A DNA stretch of 52,165 nucleotides from Deltaproteobacteria bacterium (GTDB lineage: Bacteria > Myxococcota > B64-G9): the NCBI GenBank assembly GCA_019307065.1, contig JAFDKH010000008.1:1-52165 (forward strand), written 5' to 3'. Shown here in pieces: positions 4,061-50,869 of the stretch. The notes below the pieces were generated by a model. That model was not told the origin of the DNA, did not search any database, and saw nothing but the letters and a program-made list of their open reading frames with translations. Numbering within the stretch: position 1 is the first letter of the stretch; each line of letters starts with the position of its first letter. The position numbers were made by a program, and so were the translations under genes.

Positions 4061-4076
4061 TGGCACTTTAGTTGCA
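4061..4076 (+). promoter_or_regulatory. sigma-54 (-24/-12) promoter of the NlpC/P60-like gene
   Basis: TGGCACTTTAGTTGCA matches the RpoN consensus TGGCACG-N4-TTGCA at all the key positions, with GG and GC exactly 10 nt apart. Transcription should start near 4088, leaving a 64-nt leader before the ATG at 4152. It points away from the neighbouring glutamine-synthetase gene. Confidence 0.75.
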
Positions 4077-4151
4077 ACGTAGTCATCTCAAACACAAACC
4101 GGCCCTCGGACTGGTGTTTGAGTGCGCCATTTGAGAAAGGAAGGGTGCAAA

Positions 4152-35912: not shown

Positions 35913-36611
35913 CTAATGGTCCTTCAGGTATTCAACGGCTACCGTTTCCACGGTCCGCTCCGGCACTGCATGCGGCGGCAAAATGATATTTTCCCGTCGG
36001 AAAACCCACTCTGGCTTTTTCCAGAAATCATCCGGCAGCTCATTACTGATGACCTTGAAGTCGTCTGCAAAGAAGTAGATACAGCGCCTCTCGTAAACTG
36101 ACAGGGAAAGCCATTGAGCTCGCTTCAAAGACAATCCATCGGCCGACCAGTCGTTGCCTGCAACCTCGTGAGGCCTCTGGAAAAACGTCAAAGGACCGTT
36201 GGCGACGACCGCCCTGACGCTCAAGCCGTCTGTGCCGTACCGGTTCTGAACGACCTGGCGGCAGAACGCAACGGTCTCTTTGTAGCCAGCTCCTAGCCCG
36301 AAGTATTCGCTGAAAACCACATAAATGCCGTCGCTGTCACTGCTGAGGAAAAAACCGCCGTGCTGCTCGAGAGCTAGCACCATCTTCGACAGGAAATCCT
36401 CGATCAAAATGACTTTGTTTGATACATTTTGTTCAAGGGCCCAGCTTAGGTAGTTATTCAGATCGACACGAACGACCAAAGATTTCTCCAAAGACTCACC
36501 ACGGAATCTGTACTTTCCTGCTCCCCGTCCGGATTCGTCGAACACATAGATCTCCTGCTTCTTCGACAAAAGGTAGAAATCGTGAAAAAGTTGTCTCATG
36601 GATACCATCAT
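35913..36611 (-). CDS. class III nucleotide-cyclase-like domain protein, 232 aa
   Basis: Cytosolic protein whose core resembles the adenylate/guanylate cyclase homology domain. LVVRVDLNNYLSWAL supplies an Asp at the first metal position. ALEQHGGFFLSSDSDGIYVVFSEYF matches the 'G......GDG....F' strand-loop-strand with Asp. VRAVVANGPLTF fits the 'i.iG.h.G.v' strand, and NDWSADGLSLKRAQWLS the following helix. Lys/Asp adenine-selecting residues are not obvious, and the GDG Gly is Ser-Asp-Ser-Asp, so activity is uncertain. It could be a regulatory or defence-type cyclase. The ATG has AGGCGG just before it. It is the last gene of a leftward unit. Confidence 0.5.
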   Translation of the reverse strand: MMVSMRQLFHDFYLLSKKQEIYVFDESGRGAGKYRFRGESLEKSLVVRVDLNNYLSWALEQNVSNKVILIEDFLSKMVLALEQHGGFFLSSDSDGIYVVFSEYFGLGAGYKETVAFCRQVVQNRYGTDGLSVRAVVANGPLTFFQRPHEVAGNDWSADGLSLKRAQWLSLSVYERRCIYFFADDFKVISNELPDDFWKKPEWVFRRENIILPPHAVPERTVETVAVEYLKDH

Positions 36612-36657: not shown

Positions 36658-37392
36658 TTATTTCGTCTTCGCCCTCACGCCATTCAGGCTTTCGGCAACT
36701 TGACTGTTGTGATCTCGAACATGCGCAATTTCCTCCTGAAGCGGCCGGGACACTGTGTTCAGCAGTTCTTGTGACAGTTTCTGGTCCGAGGCCAGCGATT
36801 TACCGAGATCGTATGCCGCATCGAAGATGTCTTGCGGTTTCTTGCCCAGGCAAGCGAGAGCCATCAGGCTCGAAACATGTGGCCGGATCAGTGCGCCTAA
36901 GAAATCAAGGAATCCATGCTTGCAGCAAATGGACATGAGTTGAAACAATGTCGGATGAAAGTCGTCAACACTCCACTCGTTCGACACTGAAACGAGAACG
37001 ACTTTTTTATTTTTCTGCGTATCCAAAAGAGGGTGAATTATTTGCAGCCTCTGTTTTGCCAGCATCGGATTGACAAGTGGCATCAGTCGCTCGAGAAAGA
37101 GCACCAGGGAGCCACTCAACCCAAAAAGACCCATCTGGGAAACGAGCACCAGAGCGTCCGCTTCGGCAATGACCGGAAGGACCTTTTGCATTTCGTCGTC
37201 TTGGCGGCAGACTCCATTCGAGTCTTGAAGACAACTTAGATCTCGCAGGCATGGCTTCACATGATACTTCTCGACCCGAATCCTCTTGATCGTTGCGCCC
37301 GCGCACTCGACGCCTAAAAGGAATGGAGTGAGGATCAAGCCCATGTAATCGTTTTCCAGTCCTATGCAGGCGTCTATGACCGTGATCTTCAT
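36658..37392 (-). CDS. iron-sulfur flavoprotein (NADPH-dependent FMN reductase family), 244 aa
   Basis: Flavodoxin-fold protein: MKITVIDACIGLENDYMG has the FMN-phosphate loop position, and ADALVLVSQMGLFGLSGSLVLFLERL is the typical second FMN-binding segment of the Isf/FMN-reductase family. PCLRDLSCLQDSNGVC followed by QDDEM matches the compact Cys cluster and 'DDM' of archaeal and bacterial iron-sulfur flavoproteins, although only three Cys are well placed. A two-electron redox or redox-sensing role in the cytosol is likely. It lies between the PAS-LuxR gene and the cyclase-like gene with 30- and 46-nt gaps. A redox signal feeding this operon is a reasonable guess, unproven. Confidence 0.65.
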   Translation of the reverse strand: MKITVIDACIGLENDYMGLILTPFLLGVECAGATIKRIRVEKYHVKPCLRDLSCLQDSNGVCRQDDEMQKVLPVIAEADALVLVSQMGLFGLSGSLVLFLERLMPLVNPMLAKQRLQIIHPLLDTQKNKKVVLVSVSNEWSVDDFHPTLFQLMSICCKHGFLDFLGALIRPHVSSLMALACLGKKPQDIFDAAYDLGKSLASDQKLSQELLNTVSRPLQEEIAHVRDHNSQVAESLNGVRAKTK

Positions 37393-37422: not shown

Positions 37423-38094
37423 TTACACCAGCTTGAGCAGGATGGCGCTGACGGCTGCTTGCACACGATCGTTGACGCCCAGCTTGTCGAATATGTTGGT
37501 TATGTGACGCTTCGCGGTGTTCACGCTGATTCCGAGTACTTTCGCGATCTCCCGATTTGTATGACCCTTAACTATTAGCAGCAGAACCTCTTTTTCCCGC
37601 TCGGTCAGGCAGAAGACGGTCTCGATTCCCCGAGAAAACGCCGTCTCAAGAGTGTGCGGTTGTTTCAGGTATAGAGGATCCTTGTCTCTTGAATCCTTCC
37701 TGCGTTTGGACACAAAGCAAATCACCAGAACAACCATGTCCGGTGGTTTTCCCAATCCCTTGACCGGAAATGCGTTTGCTCGTCCCGTAACTAGCTTCTT
37801 GGGAGCGAAAGCAAACTCCTTTTCGATAATGCAGGCGTAGCCCTTGTCCATGGCCTCGTCCACGGGGCAAAAATCCAAGCACGGTTTTTTCCTGCCCTGG
37901 AATAACTGATGACAAGTTATTCCAATGATCTTCTTGCCAGTGCGTTTTTGGTCCCCAACATAGAAATCGTTTGACCAGACGATCCGGTGGTTCCGATCGA
38001 TGATACACACCGGGATTGTCAGATGTCCGAGGATGGTTCTCGAGATGGCGTTGATAATTTCCTTTTCGTCTTGTAATTTCGGCATCATTGTCAT
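37423..38094 (-). CDS. PAS-LuxR family transcriptional regulator, 223 aa
   Basis: N-terminal PAS domain (about residues 15-125, opening IPVCIIDRNHRIVWSNDFYVG). It has a CHQLFQGRKKPCLDFCP block, a Cys-containing PAS insert common in deltaproteobacterial sensors and possibly cofactor- or redox-binding. The C-terminal GerE/LuxR helix-turn-helix (about 160-220) runs LTEREKEVLLLIVKGHTNREIAKVLGISVNTAKRHITNIFDKL. The first Met of several (MTMMPK) lies 5 nt after the stop of the 125-residue reading frame upstream. With no receiver domain it should respond directly to a ligand or redox state. It is the likely regulator of its own operon or of another island unit. Confidence 0.82.
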   Translation of the reverse strand: MTMMPKLQDEKEIINAISRTILGHLTIPVCIIDRNHRIVWSNDFYVGDQKRTGKKIIGITCHQLFQGRKKPCLDFCPVDEAMDKGYACIIEKEFAFAPKKLVTGRANAFPVKGLGKPPDMVVLVICFVSKRRKDSRDKDPLYLKQPHTLETAFSRGIETVFCLTEREKEVLLLIVKGHTNREIAKVLGISVNTAKRHITNIFDKLGVNDRVQAAVSAILLKLV

Positions 38095-38099
38095 TTAGC

Positions 38100-38477
38100 T
38101 TATGCCCTTTCGGGAGGCGAATTCGTCGTCTCTCCAAAAGGCACTTTGAAAAAACGGGTTCGAAGCGCTGGTGAAAAAAGCGAGTCGAGTATACGAAACA
38201 TAGTTCCAAACAAATCGAATCCATCCCGAACTCCATCAAATTGCGGAGCATAGAAGCACACGGGAAATCTCCCGACATCACCCATTTGGTGGCCTGCTGG
38301 ACCCACAATCCAAGCCATTGCAATATAAGAACAAAACAGACGATGCGGACTATAAGGTGCCGGAATATCCGTTGTTTTTATCTGTGAGGAATTCGATGCG
38401 TTTAGCAAACCGAAACTTCTTGTTGGTTTTACGGCTGTTGGCTTTGTATCAGGTGTGTATGATTGTTTCAGATACAT
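38100..38477 (-). CDS. small unrecognised protein, 125 aa, first gene of the sigma-54 operon
   Basis: Kept as a gene because it fills the space between a sigma-54 promoter (38520-38535) and the PAS-LuxR gene, starts with an ATG preceded by GAGAGG, and ends 5 nt before that gene's ATG. The product has a polar, Ser/Thr/Pro-rich first 40 residues, then CSYIAMAWIVGPAGHQMGDVGRFPVCFYAPQFDGVRDGFDLFGTMFRILDSLF, and a basic tail. I recognise no family. If it is not translated, the region would be a long untranslated leader. A sensor ligand or small regulator is only a possibility. Confidence 0.45.
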   Translation of the reverse strand: MYLKQSYTPDTKPTAVKPTRSFGLLNASNSSQIKTTDIPAPYSPHRLFCSYIAMAWIVGPAGHQMGDVGRFPVCFYAPQFDGVRDGFDLFGTMFRILDSLFSPALRTRFFKVPFGETTNSPPERA

Positions 38478-38519: not shown

Positions 38520-38535
38520 TGCATAGAGTGTGCCA
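38520..38535 (-). promoter_or_regulatory. sigma-54 promoter of the LuxR/flavoprotein/cyclase-like operon
   Basis: Read on the minus strand: TGGCACACTCTATGCA, with GG and GC 10 nt apart (consensus TGGCACG-N4-TTGCA). The predicted start is near 38509, 32 nt before the ATG at 38477. Confidence 0.65.
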
Positions 38536-38696
38536 GGATTTTCACGGTGATCGGGTGATTGGGTACCGCGATCTGAGCAACTACAGAAATCGCTTCGATT
38601 CTTACCGTTTTCTATCTTCGTTGGGCATTTAGTTCCGGGTTTGTCTGATACCTAGTTTTCGACAACGGTGAGAGATCTCTAGAACAATGGCACACG

Positions 38697-38735
38697 ATTT
38701 CTAAATAATTCTAAAATCTCGGCCAAAGTTCTCAA
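38697..38735. promoter_or_regulatory. candidate enhancer site A (AT-rich TTCTAAA patch)
   Basis: Two TTCTAAA copies (within 38697-38717) are followed by AAAGTTCTCAA at 38725-38735. The latter is identical to 38 kb-unrelated DNA at 44634-44644. It lies about 160-200 bp upstream of the promoter at 38520-38535, the standard distance for a sigma-54 activator. Confidence 0.45.
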
Positions 38736-38748
38736 TTTTGGTCAACAG

Positions 38749-38769
38749 AAAAAAGCCCAGGACAGGCTT
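38749..38769 (-). terminator. rho-independent terminator after the GGDEF gene
   Basis: On the minus strand AAGCC, a 7-nt loop and GGCTT form a short stem directly followed by a run of T (A-run at 38749-38754 on the given strand). It lies 63 nt beyond the stop at 38832. Confidence 0.6.
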
Positions 38770-38822
38770 AATTCTTCAAATCGGCGTTTTTAAATCAAGC
38801 CGGGTCCATTTTGCCCATATTT

Positions 38823-38865
38823 CTCAGACTGTTACTGGAAATTGCCGGTCTTCTTAAAGAGCTTC
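38823..38865. repeat. 43-bp repeat, copy 1 (3' end of the GGDEF gene)
   Basis: Aligns without gaps to 46907-46949 in the same orientation with 36 of 43 identical bases. Here it encodes the end of the GGDEF protein (KTGNFQ-stop) and a few bases beyond. Confidence 0.65.
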
Positions 38866-40076
38866 ACACGGTTTCTTCCATTCAGTTTTGCTTCGTATAA
38901 AGCCTTGTCAGAAGCGGCTATGAGATCTTGTGGCGTGGTAGCTTCTATAGGAAAACTTGCCACTCCTATACTAATCGTCGACGCAATTCCCAACCCGGAT
39001 TTGGCTTTTTGAAACCATTCAGCCTCAATCTTGGCGCGCAATCTGTCGGCTACATCTACGGCTATCGCGCAGGGTGTATCGACCAGAAGAATCGCAAATT
39101 CATCCCCGCCGTAACGTGCCACAACATCATTTTGTCTGCGGTCTGCCAAAAGGATTTGACCTAATTTATGAAGTACAGCATCTCCCATTTGATGACCATG
39201 CCTGTCGTTGACAAGCTTAAAGTGGTCAACGTCGATCATCAGTAAAGAAAGAGGTTGACCACTGCGCCGGCTTCGCTCTATTTCCGAATTCAAAATGGCT
39301 TTAAGATGACGACTATTGTAAAGCCCGGTAAGTTCATCTGTTATTGATACCTGTTCGAGATTTTTATACGCCATGGAAAGAGATAGTACCTGCTGCTTCT
39401 CAGAAATATCTCGAATAGCGGCCATTTGGGCAAATTGACCTTTGTACACACACGGCTTGCCAATGATTTCAAGCAATAATTTAGAGCCATTTTTTCTTAG
39501 CCCAAATGCATGATACGGCCTGTCGAACCCTGTCTGGATTTTATTAAGTATAGACTTGTGTGATTCTTGTGCAGAAATGTCTGAAACCTGCATGCCAATC
39601 AAATCAGACAACTTGTAGCCCAACATAGATGCCAAGGCTGGATTGACAAGGCGTATTCTGCCGGAATCGTGAATCAAAACTCCCTCGAAAGCATTCTCTT
39701 CCAAAATGCGGAAACGTTCCTCCGCTTCACTCGATCCATTTCCACCCTGCTTACCAAACTGGATGTCATTGGGTTTGAGTCCCGAAGGCGTCTGGTGTCC
39801 CTGAGAAACATTGGGTAACGATTTGTCCTGACCAAGTAGACAAAACACTGCAGTCCGGAAGTCATCGATATCAAACTGTGATTCGAAAACCAGAACATTA
39901 CCCATTTTACGCGCTTCAAATGCCAGCTCCTTCTCATTTTCTTGGGCAAAAAGGATAAAAGGTATTTTCCAATTTGAGTTGCGCAGATCAGCAAGCAGGT
40001 CGATGCCTTTTCGTCCCGGTAAGTTGATGTCCGCGATTATCATAACCGGTTGCTCATAGTGCTTTTCATCGATCAA
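38832..40076 (-). CDS. PAS-GGDEF diguanylate cyclase with a truncated receiver domain, up to 414 aa
   Basis: Makes the second messenger cyclic di-GMP from GTP. A PAS domain (about residues 125-240, RFRILEENAFEGVLIHDSGRIRLVNPALASMLGY) precedes a complete GGDEF domain (250-410). The latter has LTGLYNSRHL, RYGGDEFAILL with GGDEF at 323-327, and an RQND inhibitory I-site five residues before it. Residues 10-100 are the back half of a receiver domain (IIADINLPGRKGIDLLADLR has the phosphoacceptor Asp). Its front half lies in another frame upstream (40073-40189), so the gene appears frameshifted. The given start is a TTG. Translation might instead begin further in. A terminator follows. Confidence 0.7.
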   Translation of the reverse strand: MIDEKHYEQPVMIIADINLPGRKGIDLLADLRNSNWKIPFILFAQENEKELAFEARKMGNVLVFESQFDIDDFRTAVFCLLGQDKSLPNVSQGHQTPSGLKPNDIQFGKQGGNGSSEAEERFRILEENAFEGVLIHDSGRIRLVNPALASMLGYKLSDLIGMQVSDISAQESHKSILNKIQTGFDRPYHAFGLRKNGSKLLLEIIGKPCVYKGQFAQMAAIRDISEKQQVLSLSMAYKNLEQVSITDELTGLYNSRHLKAILNSEIERSRRSGQPLSLLMIDVDHFKLVNDRHGHQMGDAVLHKLGQILLADRRQNDVVARYGGDEFAILLVDTPCAIAVDVADRLRAKIEAEWFQKAKSGLGIASTISIGVASFPIEATTPQDLIAASDKALYEAKLNGRNRVKLFKKTGNFQ

Positions 40077-40189
40077 CGCAAGCGCAAGTCTGAGTGGGCC
40101 AGTATTATTCGTTTTTTATTTTGAAATGTAGTTCCGACGGTAGGAATAGCGTTTCGATACTCAACTAGAATGTTGTCAATTGAGTCCAT
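40073..40189 (-). pseudogene. out-of-frame 5' fragment of the GGDEF gene
   Basis: ATG 40189, preceded by AAGGGGTG, opens a 38-codon frame ending KKRIILAHSDLRLR. The hydrophobic strand IILAHSD is the first receiver strand with its acidic pair position. The following receiver part continues one frame over at about 40080. Only about 23 residues separate the two acidic positions instead of about 45, so a deletion of about 65 bp is inferred. Confidence 0.55.
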
Positions 40190-40257
40190 CAAGATCACCC
40201 CTTGATAAGTAATTTCGAGTCATTTATAAATACGCTGTCATTTTGGGATATTCACCT

Positions 40258-41106
40258 TCAGTGCTCCATGTCGCCCGATGTATGCTTGGCCTCTATCGAA
40301 TCTGCAGATAATCGAAGCCATCTTCTTACTACAAGCTTTGACTCGATACTAAAACAACGCTCAAGCTCTTTTTCATTGTGTTCAAGTAGCCTCTTGATCA
40401 TACCGACTTGAAGTGGGTCTAATTCTTTCAATTCTTGAGCTCTTCTCATACTCATCTCGTCAAAATCACGATCCGGCATCACCTCGTCAACCAGATTCAT
40501 CTTTAGGGCCATCTCGGCATTGATCGGGCTGCTTTTCAGCAGGATTCGTTTCGTTTCTGCATATCCAATACACCTTGATAACAAATGTGTAATTGCCCCC
40601 TGGGGGGGCATCCCAATTTTCACATGAGGGAAGGAAAATACTGTTGATTCTGAAGCTATTCTATAATCGGCGGCTAAAGCCATGCTAAGGAATTGTTCAA
40701 CCACCGAACCATTTACAGTTGCTATTATGAGCTTCCCACAAGTGAGAACCTTCGTGATAAGTTGAGAAAGCGTATTTTCTTCTCTAGCGACTTGCATTTC
40801 CAGCGAGGCGCTATATGGAAAAGCGCTTCGCAAGTTACTGTTTTTTGCTAAAGAGACATTTTTCCAAAACTGATTGTAATTCTCTTCACCCAGCGCAGAC
40901 GGATCACTCCGAAGTAAAACAACACGAATCTCATCTCTCACTTCTGCCAAACTCAAACGTTGCAGAAGCAAATCTTTTTGGCAGAGATCTGCGATAATTT
41001 CGAAGGCGTTGTCTTTTAGATCTATTACTCCAACGCCATCTTCTATGAAACATCGAAGATGTTCTTCAGAATGTGTAAAAGAGCCTATTTTTGAAATAGC
41101 GTACAT
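40258..41106 (-). CDS. crotonase-fold protein lacking the catalytic glutamates, 282 aa
   Basis: The enoyl-CoA hydratase/isomerase fold is clear from KLIIATVNG, ALAADYRIASESTVFSFPHVKIGMPPQGAITHLLSRCIGYAETKRILL and NAEMALKMNLVDEVMP. By eye-alignment to rat enoyl-CoA hydratase, the GGG of the oxyanion hole reads Glu-Gln-Phe, Glu144 is Ser and Glu164 is His. Hydration of enoyl-CoA is therefore unlikely. Ligand binding, a different acyl-CoA chemistry or signalling is possible. The start at 41106 has AAAGGAG 5 nt upstream, preferred over the frame start at 41136. A sigma-54 promoter lies 60 nt before it. The GGDEF gene follows on the same strand. Confidence 0.75.
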   Translation of the reverse strand: MYAISKIGSFTHSEEHLRCFIEDGVGVIDLKDNAFEIIADLCQKDLLLQRLSLAEVRDEIRVVLLRSDPSALGEENYNQFWKNVSLAKNSNLRSAFPYSASLEMQVAREENTLSQLITKVLTCGKLIIATVNGSVVEQFLSMALAADYRIASESTVFSFPHVKIGMPPQGAITHLLSRCIGYAETKRILLKSSPINAEMALKMNLVDEVMPDRDFDEMSMRRAQELKELDPLQVGMIKRLLEHNEKELERCFSIESKLVVRRWLRLSADSIEAKHTSGDMEH

Positions 41107-41165
41107 TTTGGCTCCTTTGCCTATGCTAATGAGCAATCAGCTTGTTGTGCCCGCTTTAGATAGAA

Positions 41166-41181
41166 AGCATAATGCGTGCCA
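41166..41181 (-). promoter_or_regulatory. sigma-54 promoter of the crotonase-GGDEF unit
   Basis: Minus strand TGGCACGCATTATGCT: the seven-base -24 block is perfect and GC is correctly spaced. The start is near 41154, about 48 nt before the ATG at 41106. Confidence 0.75.
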
Positions 41182-41257
41182 AGATATTGCGAACGGGCAA
41201 TAGGTAGTTGCAATGGGCTGAATACAAGTAAAATATGGCAGATTAGGACTCCTCCTT

Positions 41258-41345
41258 CTGTAGAAATCTCGAAAATTGTCAGGTGGAAAGTCAAAAATTT
41301 GCTAAATTTTTGGTCAAGAAACGTAGAAATATTTCGAAAAAGTTA
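41258..41345. promoter_or_regulatory. candidate enhancer site B, shared by two divergent sigma-54 promoters
   Basis: AT-rich patch with CTCGAAAA and TTTCGAAAAA, a long AAAAATTT-GCT-AAATTTTT inverted repeat and GAAATATTTC. It lies 77-164 bp from the leftward promoter (41166) and 121-208 bp from the rightward one (41466), within the usual enhancer range of both. Confidence 0.45.
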
Positions 41346-41465
41346 GATGAAAAATCTAATCCTTCCGACACGGCCGATTCACGAAAAAGATCATAATTGA
41401 CAAATTACCCTATTATAACACTACGTTGGCGATAGAGTAATACCCTCCCACATACCTTCTTTGCC

Positions 41466-41481
41466 TGGCTTGACTCTTGCT
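41466..41481 (+). promoter_or_regulatory. sigma-54 promoter of the kinase-activator operon
   Basis: TGGCTTGACTCTTGCT: TGGC and TTGCT with exact spacing. The start is near 41493. AGGTGG and ATG 41518 follow. Confidence 0.65.
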
Positions 41482-41517
41482 ATCGGTCCTGATGTAGTTT
41501 TCTCAGGTGGAAACCAA

Positions 41518-43170
41518 ATGACTGATATGAAAATCGAACGCCTAAACCTCGTTCTGCGAACAATCAGGAATGTCAACCAACTCCTCGTAAAGGAAAGAGA
41601 TTGCGCCAATCTCTTACAGGGCATATGTGATAACCTCACGGAAAATAGAGGTTACTATAACGTCTGGATTGCTCATTTGGACGGCTCAGGGCAATTGATC
41701 GGAGCGGCAGAATCAGGCTTAGGTAATGAATTCCAGCCAATAGTCAACCTGATGAAACAAGGGGAATTGACTGATTGTGGTAAAAAGGCTGTGAGTAAAT
41801 CTGAAGCGTTCTTGATTGAAGATCCTTTTACTTCCTGCCCCGACTGCCCACTTGCTAAAAAATATGAAGGCAGGTCGGGCTTGGCAATTGGTCTGCGGCA
41901 CAATGAAAGAATCTTCGGATTGCTATGTGTATCAATTCCAAAGGAATTTATTTCAGACAAGGATGAGCGTGACCTATTGCAAGAAATAGCCGGAGACATT
42001 GCATTTGGTTTGCACAATATTGAGGCGGAAGAAAGTCGTATAAAAACCGAAAAGAAACTGACTAAAATCCAACAAGCTTTGCTCGAAAGCGATAAGGGTC
42101 TCCGTGATCTTGTGGAGAATTCACTTACCGGCATTTCTATAATCCAAGGTGACAAGGTTTCTTACAGAAACCCAACGCAGAAAATTCTACTAGCTGGGTT
42201 ACCGCATTTATTCCACCATAAAGACACCGGACATATCTATCCAGATGATGTAGATAAAGTAGAATCATACTATCAGGAATTACTATCTAACAATATAGAG
42301 ACAGAAAGCATTGATTTCAGGTTCTATCCTTTAGGAAAAATTGGTAGTAAACCCGATCTGAAATGGGTTCATTGCCAAGCAAGGCAAGTAGATTTCAAGG
42401 GAGAAAAGGCAATACTAATCAATTTGATGGATATAACAACGTCCAAGGAGCTCGAGGTACTGTTGTCCGCTCAGGATAAAATGGCCTCGCTTGGAAGAGT
42501 GGCTGCCGGCATAGCACATGAAATCAGAAATCCGCTGTCTGGTATCAATATCTACCTCAACGCCCTGGAGAAGTGTTATGATTCCGGAGACCGTGATGGA
42601 AACTTCAAGCAGATTATTGAGCAGCTACAATCCGCATCACGCAGAATAGAGTCGGTCATCAAGAGAGTCATGGACTTCTCCAAGACCAGCGAGCCTTCTT
42701 TCGTCCAAGTAGACATTAACCGGTCTGTTAAAGAGGCTATTGATTTATCTTCGGTTACCCTGCGTAAGAGTGGTGTTGCTATCGAGCATCTGTTGGCGGA
42801 TGACTTGGCGCATTGCAATGCTGACCCGCAACTTATAACCCAAGTGCTACTAAACCTGATTACCAACGCAGCTGAGGCCATGAAGAACCTCGAACGAGGG
42901 AAACATATTAGAGTTGCGACATATATGGATAATGAACAAGTTACAATAAGTGTATCTGACTCTGGTCCTGGTGTACCCTTGCGTATCAGAGAAAAGATAT
43001 TCGATCCTTTCTATACCACCAAGGACTGGAGTACAGGAATTGGCCTCAGTCTATGCCATAGGGTCATTTCAGATCACCGAGGCACGATAAAAGTACATGA
43101 AGGTGAATTGGGGGGAGCGGAATTTAGAGTTTCAATTCCCACGGAAATCAGCGAGGACAGCTCGAAATGA
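41518..43170 (+). CDS. GAF-PAS sensor histidine kinase, 550 aa
   Basis: Soluble kinase with no membrane segment. A GAF-like domain (about 15-165) contains TSCPDCPLAKKYEG, a Cys block suggesting redox or cofactor sensing. Next come a linker helix, a PAS-like domain (190-310), the dimerisation domain with His334 in AAGIAHEIRNPLSG, and an ATPase domain with NLITNAAEAM (N box), SDSGPGVP (G1) and GIGLSLCHRVI. The start at 41518 has AGGTGG 7 nt upstream; a TTG frame start at 41461 lies inside the promoter. The stop overlaps the next start (ATGA), pairing it with the NtrC-type activator. It should phosphorylate that protein and perhaps the single receiver downstream. Confidence 0.88.
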   Translation: MTDMKIERLNLVLRTIRNVNQLLVKERDCANLLQGICDNLTENRGYYNVWIAHLDGSGQLIGAAESGLGNEFQPIVNLMKQGELTDCGKKAVSKSEAFLIEDPFTSCPDCPLAKKYEGRSGLAIGLRHNERIFGLLCVSIPKEFISDKDERDLLQEIAGDIAFGLHNIEAEESRIKTEKKLTKIQQALLESDKGLRDLVENSLTGISIIQGDKVSYRNPTQKILLAGLPHLFHHKDTGHIYPDDVDKVESYYQELLSNNIETESIDFRFYPLGKIGSKPDLKWVHCQARQVDFKGEKAILINLMDITTSKELEVLLSAQDKMASLGRVAAGIAHEIRNPLSGINIYLNALEKCYDSGDRDGNFKQIIEQLQSASRRIESVIKRVMDFSKTSEPSFVQVDINRSVKEAIDLSSVTLRKSGVAIEHLLADDLAHCNADPQLITQVLLNLITNAAEAMKNLERGKHIRVATYMDNEQVTISVSDSGPGVPLRIREKIFDPFYTTKDWSTGIGLSLCHRVISDHRGTIKVHEGELGGAEFRVSIPTEISEDSSK

Positions 43171-44564
43171 TCAACTACTCAGTCTACATCGTCGATGACG
43201 AGAAAACGATAAGAGAAGGCCTTACAATGGCCCTTCAGGCTAAATACAGTGTAAGTTCATTCCGAACAGCCGAATCCGGCCTCGAGGCTATAGGCAAACA
43301 ACAGCCCGATTTGATACTACTCGATATTGGACTGCCGGGAATGAGCGGCATTGATGCTCTTCGAGAAATCAAACAGAACTTTCCGGAAGTACTGGTAATC
43401 ATGATCACCGCCTATGAAGACATCAACACCGTCATATCCACCATGAAACTTGGGGCCTACGACTACGTCGTAAAACCAATCCAACCAGATAGTCTTGAAA
43501 TATCGATCCAAAACGCGCTTGACACTATCAAGCTCAAGAAAGAAGTGCAGGCCCTCCAAGATAAATTCCTCCAGGAGAACCTTCCCTGCTTTATCGGAGA
43601 AAGCAATGTCATACAAGACATGATCGAATTCATGGGAATGGTAGCAAAAAGTCCGGACACTCCGATCCTGATCCTGGGAGAAACCGGGACAGGCAAGGAG
43701 TTGATTGCCAGTGCGATACACTACCGAAGTCCGAACTACAAAGGCCCACTAATCACCGTAAACTGTCCGGCAATTCCTAAAAATCTCATTGAAAGCGAGC
43801 TTTTTGGTTATGAAAAAGGAGCTTTTACTGGGGCGAAAGCATCAGGTAAGCATGGGCTAATAGAAGAGGCAGCCAATGGCACGCTGTTCTTAGACGAGGT
43901 CGGCGACTTGAGCCTTGAGGCGCAGTCCAAGATGCTTCGTTTCTTAGAAGATAACGAGTTTTACAGGGTCGGAGGCATTAAGAAGGTAAAAGTTGAAACC
44001 AGGGTTGTTTCTGCAACCAACCGAAACCTGGACGACATGATTGCGAATGATCTCTTCAGAAAAGATCTATACTACCGATTGGGAGTCATCAAGATTGAGA
44101 TTCCTTCGCTCAACGAGCGGCGCAACGACATATTACCTTTGACAAAACACTTTGTTGAATTCTTTGCTGATAAGTTCGCGAAAGAAGTCACTGGCATCGA
44201 ACAACAGGCGGAATCCGCTTTGCTGGAACACAAATGGGAGGGTAACGTTCGTGAGCTAAAGAACATAGTCGAACGGGCAGTCCTGACTAGCAAGGGATCG
44301 AAACTAAACTTATATGATTTTGGCTTTGACGATCATGGAGACAAGCCTAAACAGCTCGACTCAGTTCATGGAGGCACTTTCCTGTCTCCTCTGTCGGAAG
44401 ATGGTATAGATCTTTCAGAAATGCAAGAATCTGTAGAGAAGTATTACATCTCTGAAGCCCTTAAGATATCCGGCGGAAACGAAAGTAAGGCAGCAAAGCT
44501 CCTCAATATCAATCACCACACCTTTCGTTACCGTAGGAGAAAACTCGGTATCGAGCCCCACTAG
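43167..44564 (+). CDS. NtrC-family sigma-54 activator (response regulator), 465 aa
   Basis: Receiver domain 1-120 with Asp10/Asp11, phosphoacceptor Asp53 (ILLDIGLPG) and Lys in VVKP. AAA+ domain about 140-375: GETGTGKE (Walker A), the sigma-54 contact loop GAFTGA intact, LFLDEVGDLS (Walker B), and R fingers in FRKDLYYRLGVI. A Fis-type helix-turn-helix ends the protein (ESKAAKLLNINHHTFRYRRRKL). A fully equipped activator of RpoN promoters, encoded amid six such promoters, is the obvious regulator of the island. It probably also drives its own operon through the promoter at 41466. Confidence 0.93.
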   Translation: MINYSVYIVDDEKTIREGLTMALQAKYSVSSFRTAESGLEAIGKQQPDLILLDIGLPGMSGIDALREIKQNFPEVLVIMITAYEDINTVISTMKLGAYDYVVKPIQPDSLEISIQNALDTIKLKKEVQALQDKFLQENLPCFIGESNVIQDMIEFMGMVAKSPDTPILILGETGTGKELIASAIHYRSPNYKGPLITVNCPAIPKNLIESELFGYEKGAFTGAKASGKHGLIEEAANGTLFLDEVGDLSLEAQSKMLRFLEDNEFYRVGGIKKVKVETRVVSATNRNLDDMIANDLFRKDLYYRLGVIKIEIPSLNERRNDILPLTKHFVEFFADKFAKEVTGIEQQAESALLEHKWEGNVRELKNIVERAVLTSKGSKLNLYDFGFDDHGDKPKQLDSVHGGTFLSPLSEDGIDLSEMQESVEKYYISEALKISGGNESKAAKLLNINHHTFRYRRRKLGIEPH

Positions 44565-44601
44565 TTTTAGAAAATCTTCAACATTTTTCCTGTTTAGTTG
44601 T

Positions 44602-44648
44602 CTAGGTTCTAAATTTATCAAAAAACACAGTCTAAAGTTCTCAAGATT
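44602..44648. promoter_or_regulatory. candidate enhancer site C
   Basis: TTCTAAA (44608-44614) and AAAGTTCTCAA (44634-44644), the latter an exact 11-base match to site A, lie about 85-125 bp upstream of the promoter at 44730. A reverse-strand TTCTAAAA occurs a little upstream, just after the activator stop. Confidence 0.45.
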
Positions 44649-44729
44649 CACCTTCAAAAAGATCTATTCGCACAACACTCCAACCACCTAACTATTTGTA
44701 CTTTCGCGCATTCCAACAAGAACGCTCCA

Positions 44730-44745
44730 TGGCACGATTGGTGCT
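44730..44745 (+). promoter_or_regulatory. sigma-54 promoter of the single-receiver gene
   Basis: TGGCACGATTGGTGCT: a perfect -24 block and correctly spaced TGCT. The start is near 44757. AGGAG precedes ATG 44792. Confidence 0.75.
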
Positions 44746-44791
44746 ATGAAAATAAGGAGTGTCAACATTTCAAATTCAGGAGCGATAGCAG

Positions 44792-45238
44792 ATGGACATA
44801 TACAGCAAGTTAAAATCAATGACAATTCTGCTTGTTGACGATAATGAGGTGATTCGAGGTTCGATGCAATTCCATTTTGACAGCCACGGATGCCGCCTAA
44901 AGACTGTTGAAACCGGTGAAGAAGCACTGAAGGCAATTAGGCAAGAGAAATACGACATTGTCATTGTGGACTATAGGTTGCCAGGTATTGATGGTTTGAA
45001 GTTTCTAGAGCTAGTCCAGAAGTCACATCCCAAAACTCTGAAGGTACTCATTACAGCCTATGGCAGTAAAAAGGTCTTCGCCAAAGCCGCAAAGCTGGGG
45101 GTCCATGAATTCATAGAAAAACCGCTGACCGTAAATAGTCTTGAAGAGTCACTAAGGCGGTTGGTGAATAACAAAGAATATCTCAGTACCCAGGCAAATA
45201 ACTACAGTGGGTTGGAACAAGGGTCACGCTGCTTGTGA
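44792..45238 (+). CDS. single-domain response regulator, 148 aa
   Basis: CheY-like receiver: ILLVDDNEVIR with Asp16/Asp17, phosphoacceptor Asp60 in IVIVDYRLPGIDG, Thr in VLITAYG and Lys in FIEKPL. A 25-residue tail has no DNA-binding or enzymatic domain. Such stand-alone receivers act as phosphate sinks, relay modules or partners for kinases. Its own sigma-54 promoter makes it a target of the adjacent activator, so a feedback element on the island kinase is plausible. AGGAG lies 9 nt before the ATG. The 3' end overlaps the convergent UspA gene by 15 nt. Confidence 0.85.
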   Translation: MDIYSKLKSMTILLVDDNEVIRGSMQFHFDSHGCRLKTVETGEEALKAIRQEKYDIVIVDYRLPGIDGLKFLELVQKSHPKTLKVLITAYGSKKVFAKAAKLGVHEFIEKPLTVNSLEESLRRLVNNKEYLSTQANNYSGLEQGSRCL

Positions 45239-45700
45239 CTTGTTCTTGTTTTTTTTTGAATCCCTGATTGTTACTACAGGACAGCCTGCGTGGCGGACGA
45301 CTTTCTCGGCGACAGAACCGAAGACCAGGTGCCGCCATCCGGTGTGGCCGTGGGTTGCAATGACAATCATGTCAACAGGCTCAGCGGCGGCAAATTTTTC
45401 GATCTCATCGGCGGGAACGCCCGTGGCTGTAACGATTCGAGTAGGTACAGCGGTTGATATCTTCTTTTCAGCCAGTTTCTCGAGAGAATTTCTTGCCGCT
45501 GCATCTGCCTTGCTAAGAATAGCTTCAAGATCTACACCGAATACGCCGCCATACGGTGGGAGTTTTGGTATAGGATCAAGGACATGGAACAAGATCAGCT
45601 CAGCCGAAAATTGTCTCGCCAATTCATTGGCCGCTTTGATGGCTTCGTGTGATGGTTTGCTGAAATCAGTAGGGCATAGAATACATCGTATTGGGAACAT
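45224..45700 (-). CDS. universal stress protein (UspA family), 158 aa
   Basis: Alpha/beta fold with CILCPTDFSKPSHEA at the start and the ATP-binding signature G-x2-G-x9-G-S in GHTGWRHLVFGSVAEKVVRHAGCPVV near the end, so it is an ATP-binding UspA of the UspFG/MJ0577 type. A short Lys/Asn tail follows. AAGGAGG lies 6 nt before the ATG. A sigma-54 promoter 59 nt upstream (45759-45774) ties its expression to the island activator. UspA proteins protect cells during growth arrest or redox and energy stress, which fits a stress-response role for the regulon. Confidence 0.88.
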   Translation of the reverse strand: MFPIRCILCPTDFSKPSHEAIKAANELARQFSAELILFHVLDPIPKLPPYGGVFGVDLEAILSKADAAARNSLEKLAEKKISTAVPTRIVTATGVPADEIEKFAAAEPVDMIVIATHGHTGWRHLVFGSVAEKVVRHAGCPVVTIRDSKKNKNKSQAA

Positions 45701-45758
45701 ACCGCCCCTCCTTCCTGGTAGTGGTAAAACACAAACTTTCCTTACGACTGATTACGAC

Positions 45759-45774
45759 AGCATGAAGTGTGCCA
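45759..45774 (-). promoter_or_regulatory. sigma-54 promoter of the uspA-like gene
   Basis: Minus strand TGGCACACTTCATGCT: TGGCAC and TGCT with correct spacing. The start is near 45747. Confidence 0.72.
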
Positions 45775-45884
45775 GCCCCGCCTATGAAGCAATATCTATA
45801 TTGTCACAATAATTTCAGAGATTTTCGTCCTGGGGCGTAAGGTAGTTTACTCATCAGCTTCAATGATTTTGAATGTGTTCGAAC

Positions 45885-45950
45885 AATTCATTTCGGAATT
45901 TCGAAAAATTTCTAATCTCAAAGCGCCTGGGTTTTGAAATTCTAAAACAA
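45885..45950. promoter_or_regulatory. candidate enhancer site D, shared by two divergent sigma-54 promoters
   Basis: TTCGAAAAATTTCTAA (45900-45915) and TTCTAAAA (45940-45947) in AT-rich DNA. The distances are about 110-175 bp to the leftward promoter (45774) and 80-145 bp to the rightward one (46032). Confidence 0.45.
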
Positions 45951-46031
45951 AACATTTTGCGATTCTTCTTAAAACTGGTTATGCCTTGACATTCACTAGA
46001 CATCCCATGCCATCGACAACTCTGTCTTCTT

Positions 46032-46047
46032 CGGCACAAGTCTTGCG
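46032..46047 (+). promoter_or_regulatory. sigma-54 promoter of the 292-residue protein gene
   Basis: CGGCACAAGTCTTGCG: GGCAC and TTGC correctly spaced. The start would fall near 46058, only about 8 nt before ATG 46066, so the message would be almost leaderless. Confidence 0.6.
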
Positions 46048-46065
46048 TACTTATGATTTACGAAA

Positions 46066-46944
46066 ATGGCAAATCAAGCAAATAGGCTGAAAGAGATATT
46101 TAGACGTCGGAATGCTGCTGGCTGTTGCGATCCGATTGGCGCCCGATTTGAAAAAATATCGAACGAGTTAAGCCAAGAAGAGCTTTTTGGAAGTGTGTTC
46201 TGCACACAGGACGAGATTGCTCAGAGCCTTCACATTAGAGTCCCTAGCCAATTGCGTTTGCTTGGGAGGTACACTGCTGAAGGTGTAGATTATGCACTCG
46301 GTCGGTATGGAATCATCCAATTTCTTAGACGATTGGGTTACACTCACCCAAAAATAACGCTAGACAACAATGAAGTCGGCGACAGAATACGTATCTGCGG
46401 ACTAGCTAATAATGAGGAGTATCTGCTAATCGAGTGCGTACTCGAACATAAAAACCTCTTTGGTAGCAACATGCTCTACGTGCACTGGTTAACACTTCGC
46501 AATCCTCGTACCAGGTTTGTCTCTAAACGTCCTCAACTCCCCGGCCAGGAAGTCCCAGGCCTTGGGTTGGCTCGTGAATCGGTCGAGCTACTGATTCGTA
46601 TCGCAAAACGCCTTTATCTTGATGGTATTGCCTTCAGGCCATCTTGGTACCACACGGCCTATGCAGCAAGATACCACCTGCGCTTTGTCAACCCAATCCA
46701 CCAAGGACAATTCGAGGCCATGATGCGTGATCTTTCAAGCTTCCCCTTGTGGGAAGCCTCTGTAGCCATTTCAGATGGTCGTGTGTTTTTGAACAATGAA
46801 CCCTATTCGTGGGAAGCTGATCCCATGGCCTATTGGTTCTCTGACTCACAATATGAACAGGATGCGATAAAGGATGAGTACAACCGTGTCCATTTTGCTC
46901 TTTTTCCTCAGAGTGTAACTGGAAATCGCCAGTCTTCACAATGA
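46066..46944 (+). CDS. unrecognised protein, 292 aa
   Basis: Soluble, no signal peptide. The best-conserved-looking stretch runs from about residue 140: VHWLTLRNPR, then RPQLPGQEVPGLGLARESVELLIRIAKRLYLDGIAFRPSWYHTAYAARYHLRFVNPIHQGQFEAMMRDL, rich in invariant-type Pro, Gly, Trp and His. I have seen similar RPxLPGQxxPGLG blocks in uncharacterised proteins but cannot name the family. The ATG has no ribosome site and sits just after the sigma-54 start point. The last codons (VTGNRQSSQ) lie in a repeat derived from a GGDEF gene end, so the native C-terminus may have been replaced. Confidence 0.65.
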   Translation: MANQANRLKEIFRRRNAAGCCDPIGARFEKISNELSQEELFGSVFCTQDEIAQSLHIRVPSQLRLLGRYTAEGVDYALGRYGIIQFLRRLGYTHPKITLDNNEVGDRIRICGLANNEEYLLIECVLEHKNLFGSNMLYVHWLTLRNPRTRFVSKRPQLPGQEVPGLGLARESVELLIRIAKRLYLDGIAFRPSWYHTAYAARYHLRFVNPIHQGQFEAMMRDLSSFPLWEASVAISDGRVFLNNEPYSWEADPMAYWFSDSQYEQDAIKDEYNRVHFALFPQSVTGNRQSSQ

Positions 46945-50853: not shown

Positions 50854-50869
50854 TGGCACAGCATTTGCG
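50854..50869 (+). promoter_or_regulatory. sigma-54 promoter of the FlhB/SctU-family gene
   Basis: TGGCACAGCATTTGCG: TGGCAC and TTGC with exact spacing. The start is near 50880, 15 nt before the ATG at 50895. Sigma-54 control is common for middle flagellar genes. Confidence 0.72.

Follow-up and report, generated by a model that had tools for sequence, protein, structure and literature searches.

A sigma-54 island in a deltaproteobacterial contig, probably acquired horizontally and probably driven by its own kinase and NtrC-type regulator

The window analysed here, 52,165 nucleotides (nt) long, is contig JAFDKH010000008.1 of assembly GCA_019307065.1, one whole contig of a 6.6-Mb genome in 471 contigs from a Deltaproteobacteria bacterium of the Myxococcota. 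We deal with an island in this window, taken as 38.1–46.9 kb (8.85 kb, with limits set after the fact), in which the genes of a histidine kinase and an NtrC-type response regulator lie among transcription units headed by sigma-54 promoters. An earlier note on this DNA had claimed six such promoters, and intact TGGCAC...TGC in four of them, and read the island as a compact, self-regulating RpoN regulon with mixed outputs. All six 16-mers are present where the note placed them and on the strands it gave, and the intact blocks are those at 38520, 41166, 44730 and 45759; the core at 41466 is TGGCTT-N5-TTGC and that at 46032 is CGGCAC-N5-TTGC. In the following list, scores in bits come from a sigma-54 matrix trained on 77 upstream sites, all outside the window, and leader lengths are predicted.

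38520–38535, minus strand: sigma-54 promoter TGGCACACTCTATGCA, 18.1 bits, leader 33 nt; unit orf125, LuxR-type regulator, flavin mononucleotide (FMN) reductase-like protein and a protein of no known family starting at 35913
41166–41181, minus strand: sigma-54 promoter TGGCACGCATTATGCT, 19.7 bits, leader 53 nt; unit crotonase-like protein and PAS-GGDEF protein
41466–41481, plus strand: sigma-54 promoter TGGCTTGACTCTTGCT, 15.8 bits, leader 27 nt; unit histidine kinase and NtrC-type regulator
44730–44745, plus strand: sigma-54 promoter TGGCACGATTGGTGCT, 15.7 bits, leader 37 nt; unit single-domain receiver
45759–45774, minus strand: sigma-54 promoter TGGCACACTTCATGCT, 16.9 bits, leader 49 nt; unit universal stress protein
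46032–46047, plus strand: claimed sixth promoter CGGCACAAGTCTTGCG, 8.6 bits (chance level), leader just 9 nt
41518–43170, plus strand: histidine kinase; Pfam GAF, HisKA and HATPase_c, HEIRNP motif
43167–44564, plus strand: NtrC-type response regulator; receiver domain (REC), Sigma54_activat with GAFTGA, Fis-type helix-turn-helix (HTH)

Judged by the pattern TGGCAC-N5-TTGC, with GG and GC 10 bp apart, five of the sites are strong predicted sigma-54 promoters, with scores of 15.7–19.7 bits and leaders of 27–53 nt, and the one at 46032 is probably not. The claim of six is thereby reduced to five, and the further claim that the promoters cover every identifiable transcription unit of the island holds when the gene at 46066 is excluded and fails when it is included. 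In this genome, matches to the strict patterns mostly exceed chance, because TGGCACN6TGCW has 81 occurrences and its reversed-pattern control 13, and for TGGCACN5TTGC the corresponding counts are 73 and 2. Four of the 81 fall in the island, all within 38,520–45,774, and a fifth is at window position 4061; among contigs with at least two matches, two is the maximum for any other stretch of 8.85 kb. The Poisson probability of at least four strict matches is 5e-6 per 8.85-kb stretch, or about 0.004 once multiplied by the number of stretches. At a matrix threshold of 15.7 bits, 37 background loci (633 kb) gave 12 matches, 11 of them intergenic and upstream of genes, and the reversed matrix gave 5 in the same DNA, none so placed; this sample is biased low, since the neighbourhood of known strict matches had been avoided in choosing it. 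The 63 loci that do surround strict matches contained 63 matrix matches in 512 kb, and simple arithmetic on both samples combined gives at most about one such match per 37 kb genome-wide. The regulon proposed earlier thus withstands the comparison of match density with the host samples, and also the check for the sigma factor itself: rpoN is encoded in the genome (PF04552 match on contig C382, E 2.4e-63), and a sigma-54 reading is therefore possible.

It could be argued that AT-rich DNA fits a loose consensus by chance at these sites and that the genes are transcribed from other promoters. When as many as two mismatches are allowed, the pattern does occur 39 times in the window against 27 expected, and 46032 is such a site. 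However, when the four island intergenic regions were shuffled under a first-order Markov model (2000 sets), 0.007 matches of at least 15.7 bits arose per set, against the five sites observed, and the placement of these five before genes is uniform. Sigma-70-like sites number 9 in 35.8–47.2 kb against 15.4 in shuffles, and just one is suitably placed, at 38735–38708 on the minus strand, upstream of orf125. This one could serve the orf125 unit and counts against the self-wired regulon proposed below. We regard chance matching as highly improbable. A slight peculiarity of the sites is the base that precedes TGC in the four strict island sites (A, A, G, A): T stands there in 49 of the 75 host sites that fit the same T-neutral pattern and in 0 of 4 island sites (p 0.02), a hint that the island may use a different sigma-54 promoter dialect.

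The gene behind the 46032 site is:

46066–46944, plus strand: relative of the C-terminal half of an approximately 600-residue Hist_deacetyl protein, with the deacetylase half absent

The possibility that all six sites are promoters, with the 46066 gene as sixth target, draws on the position of 46032, which is on the strand of the gene and 19 nt ahead of its ATG, on a palindrome at 45901, described below, that lies between 46032 and the stress-protein promoter, and on the atypical codon usage that the gene shares with its neighbours. The score of the site is nevertheless at chance level and the leader is 9 nt: the same Markov shuffles give 0.27 matches of at least 8.5 bits per set, so the site is indistinguishable from chance. 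The protein has no Pfam or NCBIfam domain match; it aligns to the C-terminal ~275 residues of longer proteins, the best matches being mostly frames of ~580–680 residues. Among 97 genomes searched (8 from the same family, the rest from the same phylum, no other of the same genus), 63 have a match, source genome included. Two of these loci were read (L008 and L009), and both start with a deacetylase-like half that is absent here, identified by Pfam on L009 as Hist_deacetyl; four further loci, displayed in a wrong frame, were left aside. The N-terminal half of a same-family relative gave only weak matches in the source genome (E 7.5e-9 and 4.9e-8). We see 46066 as an orphan domain at what is probably the edge of the island. 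It is less certainly a remnant because free-standing relatives exist: many of the weaker ones (~28–39% identity) are in frames of ~310–360 residues, one of them in the source genome (contig C44), and in this respect 46066 may be a real gene. On balance, a sixth promoter appears quite improbable.

The regulatory pair at the centre of the island is intact in its motifs. By Pfam domains and motif reading, the NtrC-type activator with an unbroken GAFTGA and the kinase of its own that had been claimed are both found, and the elements of an NtrC-type two-component activator (REC, GAFTGA-bearing AAA+ domain, Fis-type HTH and partner kinase) are all there. The start of the regulator gene (43167) overlaps the stop of the kinase gene (43170).

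New here is a palindrome common to the upstream regions, approximately TAGAAATATTTCGA. For motif work we used four intergenic regions, A (38540–38831), B (41186–41461), C (44565–44726) and D (45778–46028). An unconstrained search of these returned a palindrome of approximately TTcgAAAatTTTcgAA, with a score of 98.3 as a 16-mer; 15 dinucleotide shuffles of the same regions at this width had a mean of 52.8 and a maximum of 65.9. The candidate activator (enhancer) sites, with the results of held-out tests, are:

41324–41337, no strand: palindrome TAGAAATATTTCGA, candidate activator site in the divergent region between the crotonase-like and kinase genes (B); held-out best 41323, 0 of 1000 controls
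45901–45914, no strand: palindrome TCGAAAAATTTCTA, candidate activator site upstream of the universal stress protein gene (D); overlapping held-out best 45896, 0 of 1000 controls, shifted model
44568–44581, no strand: TAGAAAATCTTCAA, weaker candidate activator site upstream of the receiver gene (C); held-out 0.046, best 44572, shifted model
38700–38713, no strand: TCTAAATAATTCTA, weakest candidate activator site, in region A; held-out 0.242, not significant

The two best palindromes (41324 and 45901) are in divergent regions, ~160–175 bp from predicted starts, and of the weaker copies the one at 44568 stands at about −180 and the one at 38700 at about −196. In a control with AT-rich host intergenic DNA, 0 of 60 sets reached the island score at widths 16 and 18; with equal numbers of random starts, 2, 1, 0 and 2 of 100 AT-rich host sets did so at widths 12, 14, 16 and 18, respectively. 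With up to two mismatches, a simplified 14-mer of the palindrome precedes all five island promoters, against 3 of 70 other host promoters, and 1 of 21 host promoters with AT-rich upstream DNA. It is denser in the upstream regions, with 7 copies in 981 bp, than in the coding DNA of the island, with 3 in 7,484 bp (p 2e-5). The promoter and density counts are partly circular because the motif was derived from the island.

Several observations weigh against a single shared activator site. At width 12, the unconstrained search scored 62.8, against 64.2 in the best of the 15 shuffles; in the shuffle run and the 60-set run, the island had been searched from a larger number of random starts than its controls, and with equal starts 0–2% of host control sets still match the island palindrome. 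The held-out tests are firm only for B and D, with C weak and A failing, and leaving out C or D makes the search settle on another AT-rich palindrome. The GGDEF gene itself contains two one-mismatch palindromes, at 39355 and 39401, 46 bp apart; exact palindromes occur twice in a 1.2-Mb host sample outside the island; and there is no phylogenetic footprint because limited searches found no orthologous island. Asked whether the same activator site stands upstream of every unit, the data thus answer unevenly: 0–2 of 100 host sets are as good, and held-out support is present in B and D, weak in C and missing in A. We conclude that the evidence for a common site is fair where the two divergent regions are concerned and modest for the promoter set as a whole, and that the palindrome as the predicted site of the resident activator is supported but not proved.

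These mixed results are also what gives weight to a different reading, namely that the five promoters are real but answer to several host activators instead of the resident regulator only, and that the island is a patchwork of stress genes. Activator counts are reported to be high in Myxococcota (PMC12316311, PMC4641369), the palindrome is firm in just two of four upstream regions and equalled by 0–2 of 100 control sets, and the genes at 35.9–38.1 kb deviate in composition from the rest. On the other hand, the kinase/activator pair sits in the centre of the island, and the palindrome ranks within the best 2% when compared with host control sets at all four widths and is rare at other host promoters (the 3 of 70 above). 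We consider a patchwork under several activators possible, if fairly unlikely; the resident activator as driver, as the earlier note had it, receives moderate sequence support from the palindrome common to the upstream regions.

The composition of the island is atypical. From orf125 through 46066, the GC content is 0.42–0.50 and codon usage ranks no higher than the 1.8th percentile among 495 host open reading frames (ORFs) selected by length, while the flanking genes tested are at about the 12th percentile or above, flhB (50865) excepted. Taken together, we hold that the stretch at 38.1–46.9 kb was probably acquired horizontally. Two points tell against such a simple picture: flhB, which is probably native, also has a low codon score (0.8th percentile), which cautions against over-reading atypical composition, and the last three genes of the 38520 unit are near-host in composition, so that this unit may be composite. 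The window contains no tRNA that would mark an island edge, and Pfam analysis of 21 window proteins revealed no integrase.

No orthologous island or donor was found in limited searches, and the donor phylum may lie outside the sample. The counts of genomes in our protein searches (195, 384 and 97) include the source genome itself. Across 194 other genomes of the phylum, the protein at 35913 had no match at E ≤ 1e-5 and that at 37423 none at E ≤ 1e-15; the crotonase-like protein had none at E ≤ 1e-25 in 383 other genomes, with up to six candidates scored in the genomes listed. Viral contigs returned nothing for the 37423 protein or the crotonase-like protein. On plasmids, the crotonase-like protein matched 592 records, all below 60% identity and distant crotonases, and the 37423 protein matched 893, with two in the 60–80% band and identities of 26–41% among the eight matches listed. 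At E ≤ 1e-12, the sensor half of the kinase had matches in 24 genomes out of 384, mainly via residues ~3–200 and often in longer proteins, and has a paralogue with 39% identity in the source genome (contig C458). A concatenated island query was also run against two small phyla (4 and 8 genomes) chosen via a dsrA search of 37 genomes; it returned relatives of the FMN reductase (32% and 29%) in unrelated context and short weak matches.

We hypothesize that the stretch at 38.1–46.9 kb is a sigma-54 regulon that was probably acquired horizontally and is wired to itself, the resident kinase/NtrC-type pair driving its own operon and four neighbouring units; of the readings considered, this is the one we think likely. 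The GAF-containing histidine kinase would phosphorylate the adjacent NtrC-type regulator, which would bind the palindromes ~160–195 bp upstream of the predicted starts and open five sigma-54 promoters: those of its own operon, the crotonase-like/diguanylate-cyclase operon, the receiver gene, the universal stress protein gene and the orf125/LuxR/FMN-reductase operon. One island transcript, that of the 38520 unit, would run on to 35.9 kb. The compact regulon with mixed outputs claimed earlier is thus supported, with self-regulation probable; a universal stress protein, a diguanylate cyclase and a flavoprotein are encoded. We infer an output of stress or redox type. The locus looks like a gene block that keeps its own regulation, in which activator, enhancer sites and sigma-54 promoters travel together and only the host RpoN is needed. 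If true, it would offer a small set (five promoters and one activator) for asking how circuits stay insulated among many host activators. A bolder version, which we find rather doubtful, would have a portable sigma-54 cassette moved between lineages with its kinase/activator, its enhancer palindrome and, it may be, a promoter dialect of its own, borrowing only the host sigma factor; in it the crotonase-like pseudoenzyme may sense acyl-CoA and feed into cyclic diguanylate (c-di-GMP) signalling and the stress response.

The remaining genes and features of the locus are:

35913–36611, minus strand: ORF of a 232-residue protein, no family in Pfam or NCBIfam
36658–37392, minus strand: NADPH-dependent FMN reductase-like protein, PF03358
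37423–38094, minus strand: LuxR-type HTH regulator, GerE match
38100–38477, minus strand: orf125, possible gene of 125 residues, no Pfam or NCBIfam family, GGAGAG ribosome-binding-like stretch
38753–38769, minus strand: weak terminator-like hairpin after the PAS-GGDEF gene
38832–40076 (stretch to 40260), minus strand: PAS-GGDEF diguanylate cyclase by Pfam, YGGDEF kept
40258–41103, minus strand: crotonase-fold protein, Pfam ECH_1 from residue 119 of a 292-residue ORF starting at 41136, 2ej5 alignment
44792–45238, plus strand: single-domain receiver protein, Pfam PF00072
45221–45241, plus strand: weak terminator-like hairpin where the receiver and stress-protein genes converge
45224–45700, minus strand: universal stress protein, Pfam PF00582

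Counted from the ATG at 41103, the crotonase-like protein has ~107 N-terminal residues without a match, and its active-site region is degenerate. At the positions that we take to be those of the catalytic glutamates in rat crotonase, the segment aligned with 2ej5 reads S and H. The two glutamates expected of an active crotonase or RpfF, at reference positions that we presume, are thus missing from the aligned segment, and because of this we would guess that the protein binds acyl-CoA or has a regulatory role. In the PAS-GGDEF protein, the N-terminal receiver domain is incomplete and begins part-way in this frame; its expected start lies in another frame, and the stretch seems shorter than a normal receiver. 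This frame break could reflect genuine decay of the gene or a mistake in the assembly.

For the 35913 protein, a PDB sequence search gave chance-level matches only, and an AlphaFold model was set aside as poor (mean predicted local distance difference test score, pLDDT, 39.9); by eye, the protein resembles a degenerate nucleotidyl cyclase. The N-terminal, cysteine-containing part of the 37423 regulator looks PAS-like, also by eye only. Terminator-like hairpins are barely enriched in 35.8–47.2 kb (13 against 10.4 in shuffles), and no Rfam RNA was found in the window. Elsewhere in the window, two more sigma-54-like sites were noticed, one at 50854–50869 (plus strand, 14.2 bits) at the start of the flhB-like export gene and one at 4061–4076 (plus strand, 13.6 bits) upstream of a gene of no known function that starts at 4122 or 4167.

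Compared with known two-component systems, the island pair is closest to AtoSC: in NCBIfam the kinase matches AtoS best and the regulator AtoC. It is nevertheless neither AtoSC nor ZraSR, because the scores are under the curated equivalog cut-offs, the kinase reaching 207 of 646 bits for AtoS and the regulator 392 of 714 for AtoC, 305 of 760 for ZraR and 385 of 559 for NtrC. RpfF is a crotonase-type signal synthase with GGDEF/REC partners, and the island likewise places a crotonase-fold protein beside a c-di-GMP enzyme in one operon. Unlike RpfF systems, it has no RpfC/RpfG-type partner among the genes examined, and we do not claim membership.

A limited literature search found no title on this gene set, which does not prove it undescribed. 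The statement of the earlier note that the island matches no described system has to be narrowed, as its architecture is known from Desulfovibrio vulgaris (PMC4641369), and only the gene content is unmatched in limited searches. In D. vulgaris, 10 of 13 one-component activator genes are reported to be co-localised with sigma-54 promoters, some of them divergent and some with inverted-repeat sites (PMC4641369), and Myxococcota are reported to be rich in sigma-54 activators (PMC12316311, PMC4641369); the design of the island is therefore already known. It differs from the D. vulgaris regulons in gene content and phylum, and the D. vulgaris motifs rest on cross-species conservation or DNA affinity purification with chip detection (DAP-chip), whereas the island motif rests on a single locus. 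The resemblance to the regulons of D. vulgaris Hildenborough (PMC4641369, PMC3333781) lies in an activator gene beside its own sigma-54 promoter, divergent operons with a common upstream region and inverted repeats, and the figure legends of PMC3333781 mention UspA and GGDEF domains too.

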